A stretch of 31,486 bases of DNA from a virus. A program made the translations under genes and the position numbers. Shown in pieces: positions 1 through 11,685 of this stretch. The stretch lies in IMG/VR virus record IMGVR_UViG_3300046514_000934, positions 1 to 31,486 of that record. One strand, 5' to 3'. The notes beneath the pieces were generated by a model. It was not told the origin of the DNA. It saw only the letters and a program-made list of their open reading frames with translations, and did not search any database. The first letter of the stretch is position 1; each line of letters opens with the position of its first letter.

Positions 1-42
1 GGGTGCGCTCTTGAGCGATTCCGGACATTCCCGGCGGCGGCG

Positions 43-2313
43 TTGATTCCCCCCAAGCCCGTCCCGCTCTCGCTCGTCCTCGACGGCGTCCCGCCGTCCA
101 TGCGCGGCGAGCGGCGCTGGGTCACGTGGCGCTACGTCTGGCGAGAGGGCGAGGGCGGCAAGCCGGGCAAGTGGGACAAGCCGCCGTTCGTCGCCGGCGA
201 GGAGCGCGGCGCGGACTCCACCGACCCGTCCACGTGGCGCACGTTCGAGGAGGCGGTCGCCGCCTACTCGCGCGGCTTCGCCGACGGCGTGGGTTTCGTG
301 CTCGGCGACGGGTGGGTCGGGTTCGACTCCGACGAGGGCGCGGGCCACGCCGCGGCGCTGGACACGTACACGGAGACGTCCCCGAGCGGGCGCGGGGTGC
401 ACGCGATCGCCAGGGGCCGCAAGCCGGGCGGCCGCTGCCGCGTCGGGCCGTACGAGCTGTACGACCGCGGCCGCTACCTCACGGTCACCGGGCGCCGGAC
501 GGAGGGCTCGCGCGAGGAAGTCGAGGAGCGCACGGCGCAGGTCGCGGCGCTGTACGCCACCCTGTTCCCGGACGACGAGAGGACCCCGCTCCCCGCCGTC
601 CCGCCGCCGCGGGCGGCGGCCCCGGACGACGGCCAAGTCCTCGCGCTCGCGCGCGCGGCCAAGAACGGCAGGAAGTTCGCCGCCCTCTGGGCCGGCGACG
701 CGTCCGGGCACGGCTCCCATTCGGAGGCCGACGGCGCGCTCGCCATGATCCTGGCGTACTGGTGCAACCGCGACCCGTTCCAGGTCGACCGCCTGTTTCG
801 CCAGTCCGGGCTGATGCGGGAAAAGTGGGACGAGCGTCGCGGCGAACTGACGTACGGCCAAATCACGGTCAAGTCGGCGTGCGAGAACGTCGCCGAGACG
901 CACGTGCCGGCGTTCGAGCTCAACGACGTCGGCAACGCCGAGTTCTTCGCCGCGTACTACGCGCGGCAGGTGTCGTACGACGCGCGGCGGGCGCGGTGGC
1001 TCATCGTCGAGAACGACTCCGGCCTGTGGCTCCCGGACCCGCTCGACAGGCTCAGGGGCTACATGGCCGTCGCGATGCGCGCCCGCCGCCTCGAGGCCGA
1101 CGCCGTCGAGGACGCGGGCGCCCGCGAGGCGGCCTGGAAGTGGGCGCAGGGGAGCCTGTCGACGGCGCGGCTCAACAACCTCACGAGGGAAGCCAGGACG
1201 CAGCCGGCGATCGCCAACGACTGCGAAAAGGAACCGTGGGACGCCGATCCCGCCATCCTGGGCGTGCCCGGCGGCGTCGTCGACCTGCGAACCGGGACGC
1301 GCAGGAAGGCCGAGCCGCGCGAGCGCGTCACGATGCGGGCCGGCGCCGAGTGGGATCCGGACGCGCGGTCGCCGCTCTGGGAACGCGCGCTGCTGGACAT
1401 CGCCGACGGCGACCGGGATTGGGTCGCGTACGTGCAGCGCCTCGGCGGCTACACGGCGACCGGCGACGTGAGCCAGGACAAGTGGTTCATCAAGCACGGC
1501 GCCCGCGGACGAGAGGGAAAGGGCACCATCGACGGCGCGTGGACCGGCGCGCTCGGCGACTACGCCCTCGAGCTGCCGTCGGCGGTATTCGAGCTCAGGC
1601 CGCGGGGGAACCCCGACTTCGACCTGTCCTACCTCCCGCGCAAGCGGTTCGTCCTGTCCAGCGAAACCGGCAACACCATCCACCTCCACCACGACCGCAT
1701 CAAGCACATGACGGGCGGCGGGCGCATGCGCGTCGCCAACAAGAACGAGAAGTCGTACGAGTTCGAGCCGAGCTGCAAGCTCTGGCTGGCGTGCAACGAT
1801 CTGCCCACGGTGACGGACGACAGCGCCGCGTTCTGGGCGCGCGTCCTGGTCGTGCCGTTCAGGCGGTCGTTCCTCGGCAAGGAGGACGCCGCGCTCCGGC
1901 CGACGCTGCAGAACGACCCCGCGCACCGCCGCGCGGTGCTCGCCTGGCTCGTCAAGGGCGCGATCGACTACTTCAGGGAAGGGCTCGGGGATCCGCCGAA
2001 GGCGGTGCGCGAGGCCACGGAATCGTTCCGCGACGTCGCGTGGCCGCTCACGCCGTTCGTGCGCGAGGACTGCGTCGCGGGCCCGGGTGCCCACGCGTCG
2101 GTCGGCGACTTCAACCTCGCCTACCAGCGCCACTGCGAGCGGCAGGGCGTCCCCGTCGGCAAGCGCCTCGGCTGGAAGCGCGTGCTCGCGCTCATGGAAG
2201 CCCGCCACCCGACGTACGCGACGGACGAAACGGTCGACGGGCGCCGCATTAGGGAAAAGCACTACGACGGCATCGGGCTCCGGGAACCCGTGCGCCGGCC
2301 GGAAGACTTCTAG
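43..2313 (+). CDS. P4/D5-family primase-helicase
   Basis: Predicted replication protein combining a primase-like N-terminus with a superfamily 3 helicase. The first 60 residues (RRWVTWRY, a KPP motif, then STDPSTWRTFEEA) match the start of phage primase-polymerases. Residues of about 110-165 (TETSPSGRGVHAIARG, RYLTVTGRR) resemble the archaeo-eukaryotic primase core. A D5_N-like region follows, then the helicase: a Walker A-like GARGREGKGT at about 486-495, a Walker B-like FVLSSETG at about 536-543, and the sensor LACNDLP at about 582-588. The Walker A spacing is one residue longer than usual. The chosen start is TTG at 43; ATG at 100 is also in frame. The reading frame is open to base 1, so the gene may begin outside the window. 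No clear ribosome site precedes either start. Its role would be opening and priming the origin, perhaps in the repeat region just downstream. The family is secure and the start is not. Confidence 0.88.
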   Translation: MIPPKPVPLSLVLDGVPPSMRGERRWVTWRYVWREGEGGKPGKWDKPPFVAGEERGADSTDPSTWRTFEEAVAAYSRGFADGVGFVLGDGWVGFDSDEGAGHAAALDTYTETSPSGRGVHAIARGRKPGGRCRVGPYELYDRGRYLTVTGRRTEGSREEVEERTAQVAALYATLFPDDERTPLPAVPPPRAAAPDDGQVLALARAAKNGRKFAALWAGDASGHGSHSEADGALAMILAYWCNRDPFQVDRLFRQSGLMREKWDERRGELTYGQITVKSACENVAETHVPAFELNDVGNAEFFAAYYARQVSYDARRARWLIVENDSGLWLPDPLDRLRGYMAVAMRARRLEADAVEDAGAREAAWKWAQGSLSTARLNNLTREARTQPAIANDCEKEPWDADPAILGVPGGVVDLRTGTRRKAEPRERVTMRAGAEWDPDARSPLWERALLDIADGDRDWVAYVQRLGGYTATGDVSQDKWFIKHGARGREGKGTIDGAWTGALGDYALELPSAVFELRPRGNPDFDLSYLPRKRFVLSSETGNTIHLHHDRIKHMTGGGRMRVANKNEKSYEFEPSCKLWLACNDLPTVTDDSAAFWARVLVVPFRRSFLGKEDAALRPTLQNDPAHRRAVLAWLVKGAIDYFREGLGDPPKAVREATESFRDVAWPLTPFVREDCVAGPGAHASVGDFNLAYQRHCERQGVPVGKRLGWKRVLALMEARHPTYATDETVDGRRIREKHYDGIGLREPVRRPEDF

Positions 2314-2352
2314 GCCGACGACGGCGACGTCGGCCATTTCCGGACCCGAAAA

Positions 2353-2370
2353 ATGGGCGACATGGGCGAC
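2353..2370 (+). repeat. Tandem 9-bp repeat ATGGGCGAC x2
   Basis: Two exact head-to-tail copies of ATGGGCGAC lie 40 bases after the primase stop. They share the ATGNNNGAC pattern with the ATGACTGAC repeats further downstream, so they may be a diverged part of the same array. Function unknown. Confidence 0.6.
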
Positions 2371-2386
2371 TCGCCTCGGCAGTAAG

Positions 2387-2404
2387 TCGTGAAACTTTTC
2401 ACGA
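2387..2404. repeat. Palindrome TCGTGAAA-CT-TTTCACGA
   Basis: A perfect 8-bp inverted repeat with a 2-base centre. The loop is too short for a good RNA hairpin, so a dimeric protein-binding site is more likely than a terminator. It lies in the region between primase and terminase. Confidence 0.6.
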
Positions 2405-2413
2405 AGTTGCCGG

Positions 2414-2426
2414 AACGCTGAGCGTT
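2414..2426. repeat. Palindrome AACGCT-G-AGCGTT
   Basis: A perfect 6-bp inverted repeat around one central base, followed by TTTT-C. As RNA it could fold only a 5-bp stem with a 3-base loop, so it would be a weak terminator at best. It may instead be an operator half of the palindrome cluster. Confidence 0.5.
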
Positions 2427-2435
2427 TTCGTCGAC

Positions 2436-2538
2436 GTCAGTCATTGTCGGTCATGTCGGTCATTTACGACTTTATTCCCTATAGAAATCTTACCTATACG
2501 CGGGGTTGAAAATGACTGACATGACTGACATGGCTGAC
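2436..2538. repeat. Inverted array of 9-bp iterons; candidate replication origin
   Basis: The left arm (2436-2463) has three units, GTCAGTCAT, GTCGGTCAT and GTCGGTCAT, with one extra T between the first two. The right arm (2512-2538) has the same unit on the other strand: ATGACTGAC, ATGACTGAC and ATGGCTGAC. The arms flank a 48-base, AT-richer centre (2464-2511). Arrays of short iterons beside a primase-helicase gene are known in phage P4, whose alpha protein binds repeats at its origin. By analogy this could be the primase binding site or origin. The repeats are seen directly and the role is inferred. A transcriptional operator is the main alternative. Confidence 0.7.
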
Positions 2539-2539
2539 G

Positions 2540-2572
2540 GGAAAAAATATTTCCTGAAAGATTATTTTTTCC
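2540..2572. repeat. AT-rich inverted repeat GGAAAAAATA/TATTTTTTCC
   Basis: A perfect 10-bp inverted repeat (2540-2549 with 2563-2572) around a 13-base spacer, directly after the iteron right arm. A second pair, TTCCTG (2551-2556) and CAGGAA (2576-2581), interleaves with it. In such GC-rich DNA this A/T tract stands out and could be an easily melted element next to the iterons. A terminator role is possible but would need a different strand or stem arrangement. Confidence 0.55.
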
Positions 2573-2594
2573 GTCCAGGAATCTCCCGTTCGTG

Positions 2595-2606
2595 GCACAA
2601 TTGTGC
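2595..2606. promoter_or_regulatory. Perfect 12-bp palindrome GCACAATTGTGC
   Basis: A perfect palindrome without spacer, typical in form of a binding site for a dimeric repressor. It lies about 80 bases upstream of the small terminase gene. No regulator gene is in this window, so the binder is unknown. Confidence 0.5.
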
Positions 2607-2622
2607 ACGGGCCGGTTCGAGG

Positions 2623-2657
2623 CGCTAACATTCGCTAACGCTAACATTTTGTTAGCG
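2623..2657. repeat. CGCTAAC repeats ending in a palindrome, upstream of terminase
   Basis: Three direct copies of CGCTAAC start at 2623, 2633 and 2639, and an inverted copy TGTTAGCG covers 2650-2657. The last copy and the inverted one form GCTAACA-TTT-TGTTAGC (2640-2656). The array ends 26 bases before the terminase start. It could be an operator for the late genes, a packaging (cos/pac) recognition site for the small terminase, or part of the origin. Position favours terminase binding or control; this is inferred. Confidence 0.6.
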
Positions 2658-2683
2658 GAGAATTCCGCGCGGGCGCTGATTTT

Positions 2684-3097: not shown

Positions 3098-4306
3098 ACG
3101 CCCGCCGAGACGCTGGAACTCGAAATACGGACGGCGCGGGCCTACCTGCCCCTGCTCGCGCCCCGAAAGCGCTACCGCGGCGCGCGTGGCGGCCGCGGCT
3201 CCGCGAAAAGCTGGTTCTTCGCCGAGCTGATCGTCGACCGCTTCATCGAGAACCTCAAGACGCGTGCCGTCTGCGTGCGCGAGTTTCAGAAATCCCTCGA
3301 GATGTCCGCCAAGCGGCTGATCGAGGACACGATCCAGCGCCTGGGCATCGGGCACCTCTTTCGCATCCTCAACACGCACATCGAGACGCACCAGGGCGGC
3401 GTGATCCTCTTCCAGGGCATGGCGACGCACACGGCCGAGTCGATCAAATCGTTAGAAGGGTTCTCGCTGGCGTGGATTGAAGAGGCGCAGTCCCTCTCGC
3501 AGCGCTCATTGGACCTCTTGCGTCCCACCATTCGCGAGGAAGGCTCGGAGATCTTCGCCAGCTGGAACCCTCGCTTCGCCACCGACCCGATCGACCGGCT
3601 GCTCTGGGGCGGCGACGCGCCACGGGACATCGCGGTCGTGCACACGACGTACCGCGACAATCCGTTTTTTCCCGACGTGCTGCGCCGGGAGATGGAGTGG
3701 GACCGGGCGCGCGACCCTGAGAAGTACGCGCACGTGTGGCTGGGCGAGTACGAGCGGCACTCGGAGGCGCGCGTCTTCAAGAACTGGACGATCGACGAGT
3801 TCGACGCGACTGAAGGCGCGACGTTCTACTATGGCGCGGACTGGGGGTTCTCCATTGATCCAAGTGTATTGGTCCGTTGTTACGTCAACGGCCGCACCCT
3901 CTATATTGATCACGAAGCCTATCGTGTTGGTGTCGAGGTTGACTATCTTGGCCAGTTGTTCGATCGCGTCCCCGGCGCGCGCGACTGGCCGATCACGGCC
4001 GACTCTGCGCGGCCGGAGACGATCTCCTACCTGCAGCGCAACGGCTTCCCGAAGATGGAAGCGGCGAAGAAGGGCAAGGACAGCGTCAAGGAAGGCGTCA
4101 TCTTCCTGCAAAACTACGACATCGTCGTGCACCCGCGCTGCGTGCACACGATCGACGAGCTGACGATGTACTCGTTCAAGACCGACAAGACGACCGGCAT
4201 GGTCACGCCGCTGCTCGAGGACAAGAAGAACCACGTGATCGACTCGCTGCGCTACGCGGTCGAGAAGCTGCGGCAGCCGCCGGTGGCGACATGGGTGAGC
4301 TGGTGA
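3098..4306 (+). CDS. terL: Terminase large subunit (Terminase_3 type), no standard start codon
   Basis: ATP-driven DNA packaging motor and nuclease. Counting from 3098: Walker A GARGGRGSAKSW at 28-39; Walker B SLAWIEEAQ at 123-131 with Glu128/129; nuclease aspartates in GADWG (Asp248), TADSARPE (Asp302) and NHVIDSLRYA (Asp382). About 402 residues is normal for the family. The first in-frame ATG/GTG/TTG is GTG at 3275, which would remove Walker A, so it cannot be the real start. Between the upstream TGA (3071-3073) and 3275 the frame has no standard start. The best candidate is ACG at 3098, nine bases after the ribosome-site-like GGAAGGGA (3081-3088). Other options are CTG at 3113, readthrough of the small terminase stop (same frame), or a sequence error. 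The family call is very secure and the start is uncertain. Confidence 0.93.
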   Translation, partial: TPAETLELEIRTARAYLPLLAPRKRYRGARGGRGSAKSWFFAELIVDRFIENLKTRAVCVREFQKSLEMSAKRLIEDTIQRLGIGHLFRILNTHIETHQGGVILFQGMATHTAESIKSLEGFSLAWIEEAQSLSQRSLDLLRPTIREEGSEIFASWNPRFATDPIDRLLWGGDAPRDIAVVHTTYRDNPFFPDVLRREMEWDRARDPEKYAHVWLGEYERHSEARVFKNWTIDEFDATEGATFYYGADWGFSIDPSVLVRCYVNGRTLYIDHEAYRVGVEVDYLGQLFDRVPGARDWPITADSARPETISYLQRNGFPKMEAAKKGKDSVKEGVIFLQNYDIVVHPRCVHTIDELTMYSFKTDKTTGMVTPLLEDKKNHVIDSLRYAVEKLRQPPVATWVSW

Positions 4307-6682: not shown

Positions 6683-8014
6683 ATGGCCTTCACCGACTCC
6701 TTCGATCGTTCGACGGGACTTGGCTCCAACTGGGAGACGGTCTCGGGCCTCGCCTGGTACATCGAGGCCACCAACCAGTGGATGAAGCCGAAGTCCACCA
6801 ACCTGAAGACGGCCGTGCGCGTCGTCGGGTCATTTCCGAACGACCATTACGCCGAGGTCTGGGTCGACATCCCGCTTGACACCGTCCCGCCGAGCCACAC
6901 GCGTTCGCTCTGCGGGCCAGCCGTGCGCGTCGGCGCGACCGGCGACTGCTACTACGTGCAGTTCAACATCGCGGGCCTGGGCCTCTATCGCCGCCAGGGC
7001 TCGGTCGACACCTTCCTCGGCGACTGGGCCGGCACGCAGCCGAGCGACACGTTCGTCAAGGTCAAGTTGGAGGTCATCGGCACGACGCTCACCGTCTACG
7101 TCGGCGGCACGCTGCGGCTGACGCGCACCGACGCGACGCTGACGAGCGGCAACCCGGGCTGCGCCGGGCTGACGGGTGAGACGGCGCTGATGCCGTTCTT
7201 CAACGACTTCGCCAGCACGGACCCTGGCGGCGCGGTCGTCGGCGCGGGGCTGGCGATCGGCGGCGCGGTCGTGCTCGGCGTCAGCCAGTCGGTGTACGTC
7301 GGCGTGGGGTCGGCGGTCGGGTCCGCTGCCGCGCAGTTCCAGAGCAACCAGCCGTTCACGGACAACTTCAACCGCTCGACGGGCCTTGGCCCCAACTGGG
7401 CGACGGTCGAGGGGAACTTCAACTGGGACATCATCGCCGACACGGTGCTGAAGCCGGTGTCGGTGTTCCGGCACACGGGCGTCCGCTGCGTCATCGGCGC
7501 GTTCCCGGACGACCAGTTCTCGGAGTTCTGGACCGAGGTCCCGACGATCGTCGGCAGCAACAAGTCGCTCGGCGGTCCCGCGGTGCGCGTCGGCCCCACG
7601 GGCGACTGCTATTACGTCCAGTTCGTCAAGACGGGCGTCGCGCTCTACCGGCGTCAGGCGGCGGTCGACAACTACGTCGGCGACGCCACGTTCACGAACC
7701 CCAACGACGTGATGACGAAGGTGCGGCTGGAGGCGATCGGCACGACGCTCAAGGTCTACGTCAGCGACGTGCTGAAGCTGACGAGGACGGATGCCAACAT
7801 CACGTCGGGGAACCCCGGCGCGCACAGCCTGACGGGTGAGACGGCATACATCCCGCGCTACGACGACTTCTCGTGTACGCCCTCCGTCGCGTCTGGCATT
7901 GGCGTCGGGTCGGCGGTCGGCGCGGCCATCGTCACGGGCTTCAGTTCGTCGTCGGTCGGCGGTGGCGTCGGGCAGAAGGCGGAGATTTCTGAGCGCCGCC
8001 GGAGGGCGAACTAG
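6683..8014 (+). CDS. Duplicated lectin-like (concanavalin/LamG-type) surface protein
   Basis: A 443-residue protein made of two copies of one domain of about 175-190 residues. Copy one starts with FTDSFDRSTGLGSNW at residue 3 and copy two with FTDNFNRSTGLGPNW at about 221. Both share GPAVRVGxTGDCYYVQF, LYRRQ, a V-D motif and LKLTRTDA or LRLTRTDA. This pattern is that of laminin-G/concanavalin-like jelly rolls that bind sugars. Each copy ends in a Gly/Ala/Val-rich linker containing GVGSAVG. It is probably a virion surface protein that holds host polysaccharide. Stop TAG overlaps the GTG start of the next gene by one base. The fold call is from pattern only; the tandem duplication is plain. Confidence 0.75.
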   Translation: MAFTDSFDRSTGLGSNWETVSGLAWYIEATNQWMKPKSTNLKTAVRVVGSFPNDHYAEVWVDIPLDTVPPSHTRSLCGPAVRVGATGDCYYVQFNIAGLGLYRRQGSVDTFLGDWAGTQPSDTFVKVKLEVIGTTLTVYVGGTLRLTRTDATLTSGNPGCAGLTGETALMPFFNDFASTDPGGAVVGAGLAIGGAVVLGVSQSVYVGVGSAVGSAAAQFQSNQPFTDNFNRSTGLGPNWATVEGNFNWDIIADTVLKPVSVFRHTGVRCVIGAFPDDQFSEFWTEVPTIVGSNKSLGGPAVRVGPTGDCYYVQFVKTGVALYRRQAAVDNYVGDATFTNPNDVMTKVRLEAIGTTLKVYVSDVLKLTRTDANITSGNPGAHSLTGETAYIPRYDDFSCTPSVASGIGVGSAVGAAIVTGFSSSSVGGGVGQKAEISERRRRAN

Positions 8015-11460: not shown

Positions 11461-11685
11461 GTGAAGGCAGAGCAGGTCGGGCCCGACATCGTGATGCAGA
11501 TGCAGTTCGCGCAGGCTATGTTGAAAATGTCTCCGTCGGATGGCATCGGCGTGGCACTGTCCTATTTGCTCTTGATGTCGGAGCTCGAACCAGCGAGGGT
11601 CCGCGCGATCTTGAATGAGAAAGTCGTTCGCGAAGGGTTCGTCGGCGTTTCGATGATCGAGACGCTGAACAGGATTTGCAGGTAA
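11461..11685 (+). CDS. Small hypothetical protein
   Basis: A 74-residue, mostly helical protein (VMQMQFAQAMLKM, IGVALSYLLLMSELEPARV, SMIETLNRICR). The frame is open from 11395, but the GTG at 11461 is preferred because GGAGG (11448-11452) sits eight bases upstream; GTG at 11440, 11446 and 11458 are alternatives. It ends four bases before the next gene. Not recognised. Its placement among virion genes suggests a minor structural or assembly protein. Confidence 0.5.
   Translation: MKAEQVGPDIVMQMQFAQAMLKMSPSDGIGVALSYLLLMSELEPARVRAILNEKVVREGFVGVSMIETLNRICR

Follow-up and report, generated by a model that had tools for sequence, protein, structure and literature searches.

We found that a 31,486-bp virus record with a GC content of 64.6% (the whole stretch analysed, here called the window) carries an array of 9-bp repeats directly 3' of a gene assigned to the P4-family primase-helicases, and that this array is probably a phage replication origin, one of those that directly follow the gene for their own P4-family primase-helicase. 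Several features of iteron origins are present: the site lies in a noncoding region after the stop codon of the candidate initiator gene, its repeats exceed chance, they stand in opposite orientations about an AT-rich centre, and their placement is kept. The layout belongs to a known kind and is found here in an unstudied phage, so that a GC-rich environmental phage gains a concrete and testable candidate origin. The same phage occurs in another sample, where a second record (L015, 1-1178) adds 1178 bp on the left of the window and has 100% identity over the shared part; no match was found between this extension and the right end of the window.

The array is real, single in the window and far above chance. 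The coordinates of its parts and of the neighbouring genes are collected in the table. All the repeats and palindromes named in the first-pass annotation, together with the facing triplets and the A/T-rich inverted repeat, were found in place. Two elements had been overlooked: the unit GTCGGCCAT nearest to the primase gene and the CGCTAAC(ATT) family, whose copies at 2639 and 2651 form a hairpin immediately before the putative small terminase gene (terS). In the inner arrays three units face three across the A/T-richer centre, and the two ATGGGCGAC units are oriented against the left inner array. Nine of the 11 matches to ATGRSYGAC in the 31.5-kb window lie within 2329-2538, a stretch of 210 bp that directly follows the primase gene on its 3' side, whereas dinucleotide shuffles of the whole window gave 2.8 matches per sequence on average and never more than 7. 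This bears out the earlier claim that the region holds more structure than chance would give. A similar density of units elsewhere, which the same annotation had named as a point against it, was not found: with up to one mismatch allowed, 9 units per 220 bp were counted in the array and at most 3 at any other place in the window. In agreement, de novo clustering of 9-mers over 2314-2683 found 6 copies, against a maximum of 4 among 200 shuffles. Folding of the DNA gave a stem-loop over the centre (2435-2539) of -29.3 kcal/mol (z = -7.7) and a z of -8.0 for the whole intergenic region.

Table. Features of the candidate origin region and of the flanking genes in the window.
Feature	Position	Strand	Sequence, basis or remark
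P4-family primase-helicase gene (assigned), open at the left end of the contig	1-2313	+	Pfam, TIGR01613 and structure matches
Intergenic region 3' of the primase gene	2314-2683		Upstream of putative terS
Iteron	2329-2337	-	ATGGCCGAC, reading GTCGGCCAT on the + strand; ATGRSYGAC pattern count
Two tandem iteron variants	2353 and 2362 (spanning 2353-2370)	+	ATGGGCGAC; sequence and pattern count
18-bp palindrome	2387-2404		TCGTGAAACTTTTCACGA = TCGTGAAA-CT-TTTCACGA; inverted-repeat listing
13-bp palindrome	2414-2426		AACGCTGAGCGTT; read from the sequence
Left inner array, three iterons	2436-2463	-	GTCAGTCAT (2436) T GTCGGTCAT (2446) GTCGGTCAT (2455), as read on the + strand
A/T-richer centre, 48 bp	2464-2511		37.5% GC (contig 64.6%); candidate unwinding element or loop of the stem-loop
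Right inner array, three iterons	2512-2538	+	ATGACTGAC (2512) ATGACTGAC (2521) ATGGCTGAC (2530)
A/T-rich inverted repeat	2540-2572		10-bp arms GGAAAAAATA (2540-2549) and TATTTTTTCC (2563-2572), 13-bp loop
Second repeat family, CGCTAAC(ATT)	2623, 2633, 2639 and inverse at 2651 (spanning 2623-2657)
Putative small terminase gene (terS), 129 aa	2684-3073	+	Downstream boundary of the intergenic region
Large terminase gene (terL)	3125-4306	+	Terminase_3, 4.8e-34; 56% to Xanthomonas phage PBR31

Judged by its profile, domain and fold matches, the gene beside the array encodes a full-length P4-family primase-helicase. Its score against TIGR01613 (primase_Cterm, P4 family) is 173.7 bits, for a curated cut-off of 108.7, and PrimPol and SF3 domains are present, so the P4-type call made at first reading holds. 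The domain order is an N-terminal PrimPol, an NrS-1-type helix bundle, an SF3/D5 helicase and a predicted winged-helix-like C-terminal tail. Pfam matches of the reading frame ending at 2313 are NrS1-1_pol-like_HBD (2.5e-26), D5_N (1.6e-17) and DUF5906, and the fusion of the N-terminal PrimPol to the SF3 helicase is seen in fold and sequence matches to the NrS-1 PrimPol and to the SaPI5 primase-helicase. When a profile built from viral relatives was used, 7ola (E 1.8e-104), described as the SaPI5 primase-helicase, came out as the best solved full-length structure. The protein can also be aligned from end to end, including the tail, with the primases of phages phi-adh, A2, PSA, phi105, EV3 and SP119-3, at 24-28% identity over about 90%. 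In the predicted model (mean pLDDT 82, pTM 0.55), residues 691-760 form a strand-helix-helix-strand-strand succession with low-confidence spots, which may be read as a winged-helix-like tail; the 90-residue tail alone gave no sequence match in the PDB.

The placement of the array recurs in relatives of this primase. Two homologous sites, in A2 (NC_004112) and phi-adh (NC_000896), carry a rep_origin annotation that starts from the 3' end of the primase gene. Short facing repeats around an AT-rich centre lie 3' of the primase in all six phages named above, and the repeat count exceeded all shuffles in five of them (A2, phi-adh, PSA, phi105 and SP119-3) and equalled the shuffle maximum in EV3. 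Among uncultivated viruses, 80 IMG/VR relatives were chosen on protein similarity alone, 69 of which had enough sequence; an array was counted as significant when the 380 bp past the stop codon held more 9-mer copies than any of 20 shuffles. Such an array was found directly 3' of the primase in 36 of the 69 and in an upstream control stretch in 2 of the 69, about half of the relatives not passing the repeat test. Clear examples are L303, L239, L263 and L265. Twenty of the 35 arrays that were scored were fully facing, when random orientation would give about 14% each, and the centres commonly measure 60-80 bp, usually about 65 bp, with an AT content of 0.76 compared to 0.66 for the region. The candidate origin proposed in the first-pass annotation is thus supported by the annotated A2 and phi-adh origins at the equivalent site and by these counts. 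Its proposed check for conservation had a divided outcome: position and geometry are kept, whereas the unit sequence is not. Since unit sequences vary between lineages of primase relatives, conservation is limited to position and geometry. In this sense, position and geometry, and not the unit sequence, may serve to locate the origins that follow P4-family primases in uncultivated phages, and the occurrence of different units beside homologous enzymes in many lineages turns a change in the DNA specificity of the initiator tail into a testable question. We also noticed that an element like CCCTTGKGGNNGTAAG recurs 3' of the primase in the origins of phi-adh type phages (L226-L313), where 15 loci fit a loose pattern; the window has CTCGGCAGTAAG at 2375-2387, in a comparable place.

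From this arrangement we infer the events of binding, melting and loading, the direction of replication and initiation at the array as follows. The C-terminal tail of the primase-helicase would most likely bind the 9-bp units. As the inner arrays face each other, two hexamers could be placed head to head with the A/T-richer 48-bp centre between them. This centre, which could also form a stem-loop, would then melt, the SF3 rings, once loaded, would unwind the DNA outward, and on the exposed strands the PrimPol domain would begin DNA synthesis. GC skew showed no switch at the array, with only 2.3 kb of the contig lying to the left of the site.

Among the closest known systems, the phi-adh and A2 origins share with the window a homologous full-length primase (26-28% identity), an equal position, facing repeats, an AT-rich centre and extra outer repeats. 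However, their units differ from those of the window in sequence and length (GTGTAKRGTT in phi-adh, ACGGGAGGAT in A2), the window is GC-rich and has triple inner arrays, unlike both, and its centre is shorter than the size usual among relatives. Reading of iterons by the initiator itself has been described for the Rep helicases of SaPIs, whose C-terminal domain recognises iterons directly downstream of their own gene, and for Cch2, the SCCmec helicase, which like SaPI5 Rep is a Primase_Cterm protein and whose C-terminal domain binds direct repeats downstream of the operon (PMC7581432). The SaPI5 primase-helicase is the closest solved full-length relative, and these systems resemble the window in having iterons downstream of the initiator gene; nevertheless they are satellite and cassette elements and not phages, and their iterons differ from those of the window (AAGTG in Cch2). 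Replication of plasmid pRN1 depends on a 100-bp stem-loop located 3' of its PrimPol-SF3 gene, and a similar structure exists in phage BIP-1 (PMC4234260). The likeness is that of a stem-loop of about 100 bp placed 3' of a gene for a PrimPol-SF3-winged-helix protein (ORF904), that of the window spanning 2435-2539, although in pRN1 it is the stem-loop structure, and not an iteron set, that was demonstrated as needed. The NrS-1 phage polymerase starts at TTTGGTTA and GTG (PMC8718748). The enzyme of the window has an NrS-1-type helix-bundle domain, but this 8-nt start motif is absent from the array, with a single copy in the window at 11683, and it was rejected as a candidate.

Other functions of the array have to be weighed against an origin. 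The one suggested by its neighbours is a pac or cos packaging site with units bound by the small terminase, which we consider improbable. The putative terS begins 146 bp downstream of the array; it has no match in Pfam, PHROGs or NCBIfam and is partially similar to the small ORF before terL of PBR31. The large terminase shares 51-60% identity with its counterparts in Xanthomonas phage PBR31 and in several Manatee Spring phages. Also in favour of packaging is a second, unrelated phage group, found when three tandem units ATGRCYNAC were recovered in 34 IMG/VR contigs, most of which belong to it. This uncultivated group has a PolA-type polymerase and a DUF5906 helicase, some members also having a DnaN-like protein, and its 9-bp arrays lie upstream of terS and away from the primase in 97 of 103 loci, compared to 6 of 103 in a control stretch; in loci found from the helicase alone, 66 of 71 had an array there above all shuffles. 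Moreover, the divergence of its units is slightly better correlated with that of TerS than with that of the primase (Mantel 0.24 vs 0.15; 0.05 for the primase C-terminus), a signal that may however be mere linkage, and its contig ends are scattered relative to the array, which argues against a single fixed cut site there. Against a packaging role of the array in the window, five phages with 51-60% identical TerL, in which the replication genes are of other kinds, lack an array upstream of the terminase genes, whereas homologues of the window primase keep an array 3' of the primase even in phages where the genes that follow are not terminases. The array therefore goes with the primase and not with the terminase, and the packaging site was rejected.

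An operator or promoter array, at which a regulator would act on the expression of the terminase and structural genes or on the primase transcript, has an equally small probability in our view. Its support comes from phage L202, where three short cassettes, situated between small genes and next to terminator-like hairpins, contain palindromic copies of the unit of the window and look regulatory. The window has instead a single site, and the combination of facing arrays, an AT-rich centre and a position 3' of an initiator gene matches origins, two homologous sites being annotated as such; a dual role as operator and origin is possible. The L202 cassettes (at about 3376, 3963 and 4388) are near-identical, each combining a terminator-like hairpin with TTATCCACA and with a palindrome built from two plus two ATGACTGAC-type units. 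Least probable of all is a purely structural element, in which a transcription terminator or an RNA hairpin region would follow the primase gene and the repeats would be a by-product. The stem-loop potential of the region is strong, and in pRN1 a terminator hairpin separates the gene from the origin (PMC4234260), but a hairpin alone would not require nine near-identical 9-bp units, in tandem and in both orientations, and the large stem has no T-run after it. A replication origin remains the preferred reading of the array.

Whether the units themselves are shared more widely was considered as well. An inverted ATGGCCGAC array lies in an unrelated phage (L200, 114-290) directly 3' of a Prim-Pol/DUF3987 gene (277-2502, minus strand), with the layout of the window and another enzyme. 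A single family of 9-bp origin units (ATGRCYNAC and DnaA-box-like relatives) could then be common to phages with three unrelated replication enzymes, namely the P4-family PrimPol-helicase assigned in the window, the Prim-Pol/DUF3987 enzyme of L200 and those of the DUF5906-helicase/PolA group; if this were true, a common factor, perhaps of the host or DnaA-like, would read the units rather than each primase. We regard such a family as unlikely. As the second group was reached through the motif of the window, the overlap of units is weak evidence of kinship, and chance or convergence is its likely source, given that this group has dozens of different units. A DnaA-domain reader of the units was rejected, since 48 of the 50 records searched lack PF08299 (DnaA domain IV) and neither the window nor its extension L015 gave a match, in a record that may be incomplete. 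Triple units in bacterial genomes were also set aside, being mostly coding-repeat-like, one-sided and within long reading frames.

The arrays of the second group (L118-L197, L007-L055) contain units in both orientations, about 50-400 bp upstream of terS. TTGTCCACA is the commonest unit, followed by TGACCCACA, TGACCCAAA, TGACTTACA and TGACTAACA, and the units grade from the DnaA-box-like TTGTCCACA via TGACCCACA to TGACTNACA, and also into TTGTCCACA/TTATCCACA. Co-variation between the unit and the C-terminal segment of the primase was not significant in this group (r = 0.05), so we make no claim that its primase reads its array. In ten near-complete records, the third-position skew of coding sequences is unfavourable, if anything, to the idea of a bidirectional origin at the array. 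One member, L021 (MW202483), has a ATGTTTAC-type array upstream of terS and encodes, between the helicase gene and terS (7083-7379), a 98-aa protein made up of a DnaA domain IV (PF08299, 64 bits). Finally, the CRCTAAC repeats just upstream of terS, present in four copies in the window, occur in at least three copies in 15 of 106 second-group loci (among them L160, L197 and L043), with a density upstream of terS of 2.1 per kb compared to 0.17 elsewhere; they are possibly a packaging or late-promoter element.
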